Shown: positions 1 to 2,132 of the stretch, in pieces | Layout of the letters: each line of letters begins with the position of its first letter | Numbering within the stretch: position 1 is the first letter of the stretch | From: Candidatus Roizmanbacteria bacterium | Lineage (GTDB): Bacteria > Patescibacteriota > Microgenomatia > UBA1406 > GWC2-37-13 | NCBI GenBank assembly: GCA_013335175.1 | Contig: JAAXWC010000006.1 | Location: 1-64,000, forward strand | DNA length: 64,000 nucleotides | Reading direction: 5' to 3' | Translations under genes and position numbers: made by a program | Notes under the pieces: generated by a model | What the model saw: only the letters and a program-made list of their open reading frames with translations | Database searches by the model: none | What the model was told of the DNA's origin: nothing

Positions 1-454
1 CCTTCTGACGTACATAACGTCGTTATACTATCATCTCTAGTGCCCTTAATTCAACCAGAAATCAACATTTTTGAGCGTGAATTTTTACAGATTTATCTTT
101 TTTGACTTTTTTTGCGGAACTCAGGAAACAATTAAGAACGTGTTACAAAAATATGAAGGTACGTCTGGTTTTCGGTTTACGTATTCCGGAGTCTCAGAAG
201 GTATTTCAGATATGAATTATCTCCAAGTAGACAGCAAAAAACGAAACGAATTACAAACATACGCTACAAATAATCCTGTTCTTGCAGAGTCTCCGCTCGA
301 TCTTGCAACACTCGCCGATATTTCTATGCCGATTGCTGATATTGGGCCCTATGGGTTTCATCTGCACGAGTCCAAGGAAAAAGTAGACATTGCGTTTACA
401 TTCCATATATTACCTCGCCTGCTCAAGGATATCATTTATGCATTGCAGAAATAG
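1..454 (+). pseudogene. C-terminal part of an M20-family (RocB-like) peptidase, frameshifted
   Basis: The window opens inside a gene. Frame 1 (1-114) reads a peptide with a DVHNVVILSS stretch and ends at TGA 112-114 within a T-rich run. Frame 2 then continues to the stop at 454 with ISDMNYL, a clustered APSD-like 'LADISMPIADIGPYG' segment and HESKEKVD. From memory this resembles the C-terminal end of M20 metallopeptidases of the RocB (arginine utilisation) type, where a GPxG-H-E region closes the metal site. The two frames join around 100-120 at homopolymeric T, so either one indel killed the gene or the assembly has an error there. A TTG at 71 could serve as a start for the frame-2 part but gives no sensible N-terminus. 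Family assignment is moderate; the upstream part is outside the window. Confidence 0.5.
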
Positions 455-1555: not shown

Positions 1556-1584
1556 TTGACAAAAAGATACGTTGTTTGTATACT
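1556..1584 (+). promoter_or_regulatory. Consensus promoter not followed by a protein gene
   Basis: TTGACA (1556-1561), exactly 17 nt, then TATACT (1579-1584) is the closest match to a sigma70 consensus noticed in the window. The expected start is near 1591, a few bases before the structured RNA candidate at 1591-1680. No convincing plus-strand protein gene follows. Confidence 0.7.
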
Positions 1585-1590
1585 TGTTCT

Positions 1591-1680
1591 CATATCGGGT
1601 GGTAAAGGAACTGAAGCGGTATCCATTCCGTTCAACGAACTTTACATTTCCCCCTTACGGGGTCCCCGATCTTTTTTTTT
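1591..1680 (+). ncRNA. Candidate small structured RNA of about 85 nt
   Basis: The segment begins about 7 nt after the -10 element of a consensus promoter and ends in nine T residues (1672-1680). It folds by eye as nested helices. An outer stem ATCGGG (1594-1599) pairs with CCCGAT (1665-1670), directly before the T-run. Inside it, GTAAAG (1602-1607) pairs with CTTTAC (1640-1645), which itself encloses GAAC (1608-1611) with GTTC (1630-1633). Next to this lies a hairpin CCCC-TTAC-GGGG (1651-1662). Promoter, fold and terminator agree on the same ends, which supports a discrete RNA. It matches no RNA family I recognise (not SRP, tmRNA, 6S or RNase P). It overlaps in antisense the last 49 nt of the minus-strand gene at 1632-2132. 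Confidence 0.6.
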
Positions 1681-2132
1681 GGTCGAAATTCTTGCATAAA
1701 TTCATCAAGTTGAACGACTTTATTCGGTTTTTTGTGTTTTCGCAATGTACCCCAGGCAACTGTGTGCGCTGGAGAATGTTTACCAACCAACGTGAATTGA
1801 ATAGCCCTTGGATCAACAAAGTAACCATTTCGTAGCAATAGATTTACCAGATGCTCTTTTATTGCATCATTTTTTCCCTGATATTCTTGATCAATATGCA
1901 CGCGCGTAAGAGTATGGGAATAATCTCTCAGAAGGAAGTAAAGTCCAACTGTAAACATCTGCAAATACATTTTCTGGGGAGGCATTTTATTACGTAATTC
2001 GCGTATACAAGTACGCTTGATTGAAGCAGAAATGCAAACAGAAAATGTTTTTCCGTTTGACATCGCAAGCACGGAATCTTCTTTTGTATCTTCTACTTTT
2101 CCACTTTGGTCTACCTCAACGACATAAGACAT
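1632..2132 (-). CDS. Hypothetical protein, possibly RNase H-like fold
   Basis: I do not recognise this 166-residue protein. The start is set at the ATG giving MSYVVEVDQSG; a longer in-frame extension adds six residues. Two short strand-like patches end in acidic residues, VVEVDQSGK near the N-terminus and TRVHIDQEYQG in the middle, with a basic C-terminal end (PNKVVQLDEF, RPKKK). This resembles the spacing of acidic residues in RNase H-like or DUF3800-type proteins, but that is only a suggestion. Its last codons fall inside the structured RNA candidate on the opposite strand, so the true C-terminus may be recent or the two units may interfere. No clear promoter or Shine-Dalgarno sequence was found. 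Confidence 0.5.
   Translation of the reverse strand: MSYVVEVDQSGKVEDTKEDSVLAMSNGKTFSVCISASIKRTCIRELRNKMPPQKMYLQMFTVGLYFLLRDYSHTLTRVHIDQEYQGKNDAIKEHLVNLLLRNGYFVDPRAIQFTLVGKHSPAHTVAWGTLRKHKKPNKVVQLDEFMQEFRPKKKIGDPVRGKCKVR

Follow-up and report, generated by a model that had tools for sequence, protein, structure and literature searches.

Near the start of contig JAAXWC010000006.1 from a Candidatus Roizmanbacteria bacterium (positions 1 to 64,000, the 64,000-nucleotide stretch that we call the window), a small RNA gene had been proposed from the sequence alone, with a promoter, a nested fold and a terminator of its own, running antisense to the 3' end of a hypothetical gene. The locus raises the question of whether such an RNA exists and, if it does, what ties it to the gene that it faces. 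Comparison of homologous loci demonstrates, as far as sequence can, that the RNA and one orphan protein family form a fixed convergent partnership, and that the RNA gene and the open reading frame (ORF) together make up a single mobile unit, about 570 bp long and previously undescribed, which is sporadic, multicopy and often decayed. As to function, we consider it somewhat probable that this is a homing-type element that consists of a putative RNase-H-like nuclease and an obligate non-coding RNA (ncRNA) partner.

The promoter of the window RNA, of sigma-70 type (TTGACA-17-TATACT, 1556–1584, plus strand), lies where the initial annotation had seen it. It matches the consensus at 11 of 12 positions and is the best among 22 sigma-70-like sites found within the first 6 kb; the weaker sites are about as numerous as chance would give (22 versus 18.3 ± 4.3). 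In most of the homologous loci a TTGAC-16..18-TANNNT arrangement likewise stands 5' of the RNA. The structured ncRNA occupies 1591–1680 of the plus strand, with a start predicted near 1591. Its closing helix P1, which is also the terminator stem (ATCGGG at 1594–1599 with CCCGAT at 1665–1670), the helix P2 (GTAAAG at 1602–1607 with CTTTAC at 1640–1645), the CCCC-UUAC-GGGG hairpin P4 (1651–1654 with 1659–1662) and the T-run of the intrinsic terminator (1671–1680, with nine T residues at 1672–1680) were all recovered as originally described. An extra helix, P3, nested within P2, was absent from that description; it pairs TGAA-CGG at 1612–1619 with CCG-TTCA at 1628–1634 around a loop of the UAAYCANU class (UAUCCAUU, 1620–1627), and is indicated by the fold, by covariation and by conservation.

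The coincidence of these parts had been called hard to get by chance. The fold by itself is unremarkable, as its minimum free energy of -25.3 kcal/mol is equalled by 17 of 200 shuffled sequences (z -1.49); the single window sequence thus cannot prove an RNA, and it is the comparative evidence that does so. The promoter, on the other hand, is indeed the best in the first 6 kb, and the RNA is upheld by comparison. The match of the window RNA to our covariance model (CM) R3, at 1592–1678 with 56.8 bits and E 3e-11, is no independent test, since this RNA is a low-scoring member of the training set of the model. No match was found in Rfam 15 at the gathering threshold, and a lax search gave nothing near the threshold, in keeping with the earlier remark that the RNA fits no recognised family. 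Nucleotide-level searches found nothing in its own genome and only chance matches in 83 genomes of the order, and an exact-pattern search of GTDB genomes likewise returned only chance matches.

RNAs of the family are 65–115 nt long and share a conserved three-way junction. The layout comprises P1 (7 pairs), P2 (6 pairs), an asymmetric internal loop with a GAYC-like 5' side and a UNUAA 3' side, P3 (4–6 pairs) with its 8-nt loop of the class UAAYCANU, and, between P2 and P1, the optional P4, which is missing in 8 of 25 sequences. In the alignment of these 25 sequences, all 23 modelled pairs show two-sided changes and 95% of cells are paired, with a covariation score of 0.712 as compared with 0.04–0.10 when the partners are slid by 1–3 columns. 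Compensatory changes in the outer and second helices, which had been suggested as a check, are found in 7 of 7 pairs of P1 (98.9% paired) and 6 of 6 pairs of P2. As this alignment was fitted to the model, loci of other classes provide the independent check, and there the score is 0.657 versus at most 0.113 in shifted controls. Across 37 RNAs the core T columns are 100% conserved, and conservation is at least as high in unpaired as in paired positions (0.89 versus 0.78 bits), two A's of the 3' internal loop being almost invariant; the mean fold z of 39 hand-extracted RNAs is -3.3. G-U pairs are frequent in the helices, which, together with the conserved T-run, favours function as an RNA over a DNA hairpin. 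On this comparative evidence the structured RNA with its own promoter and terminator is real, and covariation and the conserved promoter lend strong support to the proposal of an independent small-RNA gene.

The overlap with the neighbouring gene was also borne out: the RNA is antisense to the final ~50 bases of the minus-strand ORF 1632–2150. The protein encoded there has distant homologs (~30% identity), with clear matches in four further genomes of the order. A weak CM made from the single sequence gave matches precisely at the 3' ends of two homologous genes, on the strand opposite to the gene, and these loci share the same anatomy, in which a TTGAC-17-TANNNT promoter is followed by an RNA whose outer helix is the terminator stem, and then by a T-run. 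A convergent RNA is present at almost all intact protein loci with readable flanks. Loci in other classes were found through the protein alone and then scanned with a CM trained on the first class only, matches being counted within E ≤ 0.05; all 20 of 20 matches (E up to 0.022, with 19 below 1e-4) are convergent with the gene, and they lie -14 to +39 nt from the end of the protein domain. Eighteen of the 22 RNA-positive genomes are also protein-positive (Fisher p 1.5e-18), and one genome counted as RNA-only (G193) does encode the protein. Distances between the RNAs correlate with those between the proteins (Mantel r 0.54, p 0.0002). Tandem arrangements also occur, with two RNAs adjoining one gene (L042, L039) or two gene-plus-RNA units in succession (L065).

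In the window, the protein gene (1632–2132, minus strand) probably starts at an ATG at 2132, within a frame open to 2150, and would encode a protein of 166 amino acids with a conserved domain at ~1668–2120. An alignment of 54 members shows invariant D8, S10, K39 and D81, and near-invariant Q9, E14, F60, E83, Y84, G117, A122 and H123. There is no convincing match to the family in Pfam, NCBIfam, PHROGs or PDB chains, and a Pfam scan of 31 members gave none. No homolog was found in phages, plasmids or IMG/VR, on which ground a phage or plasmid origin was rejected; a defence system was rejected because PADLOC matches are isolated and confined to single members. The order of strands and helices in a single-sequence AlphaFold2 model (predicted local distance difference test, pLDDT, 38) would fit the beta1-beta2-beta3-alpha-beta-alpha-beta-alpha order of the RNase H-like superfamily, with no profile match, and a Foldseek search with that model is meaningless. 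The residues that close the predicted strands 1 and 4 of this low-confidence model, where the superfamily has carboxylates, would also suit such a fold, as would the conserved D8, D81, E83 and H123. Since the model is too poor to be used directly, the RNase H fold rests on the predicted order of elements and on the conserved acidic and His residues, and the protein is best described as a putative RNase-H-fold nuclease.

The distribution is patchy within a single phylum of small-genome bacteria (0.5–1.8 Mb): protein-profile searches were positive in 32 of 373 genomes of the class and in 21 of 380 of the phylum, with up to five matches per genome. Copies within one genome are as diverged as copies in different genomes, and a single genome may hold several different RNAs, each paired with its own protein. 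Evidence for movement comes from a comparison of G304 with its congener G208, whose corresponding site is empty: the clean insertion in G304 runs from the -35 box of the RNA promoter to the start codon of the ORF; G235, from a different genus than G304, has a degenerate copy at the same site. The edges of this insertion, together with the limits of the module in inteins, define the element as ORF and RNA in convergent orientation, ~570 bp in all. Transferred to the window, the same limits would place the whole element at 1556–2132, with the -35 box at one edge and the start codon of the ORF at the other. Often the next gene begins directly beside the element, an observation made without a statistical control, which suggests that the element inserts at gene starts. 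At seven loci (L037, L048, L061, L052, L059, L035, L043) the -35 box of the RNA directly adjoins the start codon of the host gene beside it, and among such sites the same glycosyltransferase family recurs in three genomes and one small gene (MKQ.NRL.G) in two.

Decayed copies include proteins with an in-frame internal deletion, in which the D81 region is lost while both ends and an intact RNA are retained (L155, L161; also L060 and L098), and, at L095, an RNA without any protein. The internally deleted proteins are ~40–104 amino acids long and lack the D81/E83 region; they could possibly be non-autonomous copies or short functional forms.

The protein domain also occurs in inteins of very large repeat proteins, where it is flanked by the Hint blocks (G392, G226 and G327 in the class, G753 in another class). 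The blocks around it read TxxHPYL ... HNFVGNDIVAHN|T, and PF14890 was above its cut-off in 7 of 7 scanned stretches, covering eight inteins; one locus, L058, is interrupted by a contig end. In at least eight inteins, then, the homing-endonuclease slot is filled by this domain, and in 8 of 8 an RNA of this shape, preceded by its own promoter, lies on the opposite strand right behind the domain and within the intein frame. Four of these RNAs were recognised by the CM (L072, 55.9 bits; L056, 39 bits; L154, 60.5 and 40.2 bits), and four by inspection of promoter and fold (two at L071, and one each at L073 and L074). The limits of the module in inteins are those of the freestanding element. That the RNA gene is kept from promoter to terminator, although it is translated antisense in the intein, is the strongest sign that the protein module needs the RNA. 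The position of the intein, HVVGQ|C ... HN|T, recurs in several large repeat proteins per genome (L071–L074 in G392, L056 in G226, L058 in G327, L154 in G753).

If the unit is indeed a homing-type element, the protein would cut element-free DNA sites as a homing endonuclease does, and repair of the cut site would copy the unit in. The ncRNA would bind the protein as an obligate cofactor in a ribonucleoprotein, for folding, activity or target recognition, and the unpaired motifs GAYC, UAAYCANU and UNUAA may be protein-binding or tertiary contacts. More tentatively, we put forward as a reasonable possibility an RNA-dependent homing endonuclease, in which a ~150-amino-acid RNase-H-fold nuclease needs a co-encoded ncRNA of ~65–115 nt to recognise and cut its site, and spreads both freestanding and as an intein homing module with the RNA gene dual-coded antisense in the intein.

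Several observations weigh against this interpretation. Correlated distances of RNA and protein are expected from linkage alone, and the exact pair of insertion and empty site was found once only. Of the eight intein RNAs, the CM misses four. The searches gave the protein family no sequence relative with a known function, the AlphaFold2 model is poor, and nuclease activity and RNA binding of the protein are inferred. Furthermore, some loci retain the RNA although their ORF is broken or missing (L095, L098, L155, L161), and the RNA may therefore have a role of its own.

Retention of the RNA beside internally deleted or broken proteins would also be consistent with the RNA being an inhibitor or antidote that holds the nuclease off, either in a toxin-antitoxin-like manner or as a self-limiting switch, with the pair persisting as a selfish module. 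The tight linkage of a small, toxic-looking enzyme to a structured RNA fits this, but the edges of the insertion and the location in inteins point to homing, the RNA is single-copy and has an intricate three-way junction with no repeat array, and it lies downstream and convergent, outside a toxin operon, so that we regard an inhibitor as unlikely. An RNA-guided nuclease, whose target would be recognised by pairing with short discontinuous RNA segments in the manner of IS110 bridge RNAs or OMEGA RNAs, appears distinctly unlikely. The architecture of a nuclease plus an ncRNA and the site preference (one site occupied in two genera, and the start of one glycosyltransferase family in three genomes) are what one would look for, but complementarity between RNA and extein junctions in four inteins was not beyond chance, and RNA-flank complementarity at 35 loci, set against non-cognate controls, showed no cognate excess save for one tandem RNA copy (L039). 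The strong conservation of unpaired positions is, moreover, the opposite of what a guide would show. A contiguous guide was rejected on the two complementarity results, very short split guides being possible, and it seems that the RNA is no simple guide that matches the DNA on either side of it.

More doubtful still is control of the protein gene in cis by the RNA or its transcription. A convergent promoter and a 3' overlap at nearly every locus would allow it, but the fold is kept through two-sided changes while the sequence of P2 and P3 drifts, only a short and variable part of the ORF is overlapped, and a three-way junction is unnecessary for simple antisense action. The initial annotation had proposed that the RNA regulates the gene or acts alone; this is not the best reading, as the RNA is a fixed partner of the protein family and is kept as a fold and not as an antisense sequence, though an effect in cis on the mRNA may occur as well. 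That the RNA is instead a host ncRNA, outside the element and targeted by a neighbouring freestanding homing gene, is very improbable and largely refuted: some RNAs, such as that of L095, do lack an intact protein gene, but RNA and ORF were inserted jointly at the G304 site, the RNA travels into inteins, different RNAs in one genome each have their own protein, and most RNA-positive genomes encode the protein.

Among known systems, the element most resembles IS110 with its bridge RNA, OMEGA systems and intein homing endonucleases, yet for each known family defining tests are negative. The recombinase of IS110/IS1111 works with a bridge RNA (PMC11208160). Like those elements, ours is compact and mobile, with a small putative RNase-H-fold enzyme, one structured ncRNA, a sigma-70-like promoter and site-specific insertion, and no terminal inverted repeats were seen. 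In contrast, 31 members gave no match to DEDD (PF01548) or Tnp (PF02371), the RNA is convergent with the 3' end of the ORF, has no evident guide loops and shows no target- or donor-complementary loops beyond chance (inteins, 35 flanks), and the element is present in inteins. Kinship with IS110 was rejected after hhalign comparison with 12 IS110 DEDD domains of the same phylum (probability 0.1%).

With OMEGA systems (IscB/HEARO, TnpB) the element shares a nuclease gene beside a structured ncRNA in a selfish element, but the protein has no match to the HNH/RuvC domains of the IscB and TnpB families, and the RNA, transcribed from the opposite strand and from its own promoter, starts at P1, stops at its own terminator and does not extend into the flank as a guide. 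Homing endonucleases of the LAGLIDADG type are found in rRNA genes of Candidate Phyla Radiation (CPR) bacteria (PMC11270868). The occupation of the intein endonuclease slot, the sporadic and precise presence or absence (one exact case) and the cycle of decay recall homing endonucleases (LAGLIDADG, HNH, GIY-YIG), which differ in that ours is a new protein family without a known nuclease-family match and has an ncRNA partner even within the intein frame. TIGR-Tas is likewise an RNA-associated nuclease system that occurs in CPR bacteria (PMC12045711), our nuclease being putative; here, however, there is no Nop domain in Pfam searches and no dual-spacer array, but one folded RNA per unit, in at most two tandem copies. 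Type III toxin-antitoxin systems also combine a small protein with a structured RNA, whereas our RNA is not a repeat array and lies downstream on the opposite strand, and the protein has no ToxN-like or other family match.

The literature searched, which was the open-access part in PubMed Central, contained no ncRNA partner for an intein endonuclease, and the novelty of the element is accordingly provisional. If the reading as a nuclease with an RNA partner is true, the element would add a new class to the mobile nucleases that work with an RNA, with an enzyme smaller than those of TnpB, IscB and IS110, in largely uncultivated bacteria. It would also offer a rare and testable case of dual coding, with a structured RNA gene, including promoter and terminator, antisense in a translated frame, and the ~570-bp unit fits a test in a single plasmid.

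A divergent signal recognition particle (SRP) RNA was also considered for the window RNA and rejected, as no SRP S-domain motif can be seen in it by eye and as it occurs sporadically and in multiple copies. As a separate observation, RF00169 (bacterial small SRP RNA) was unmatched in the source genome, which is rated 100% complete, and matched in 13 of 14 control genomes. The stretch of the window between the element and an ABC-F gene (2150–2590) is without an intact long reading frame and resembles the remains of a gene.
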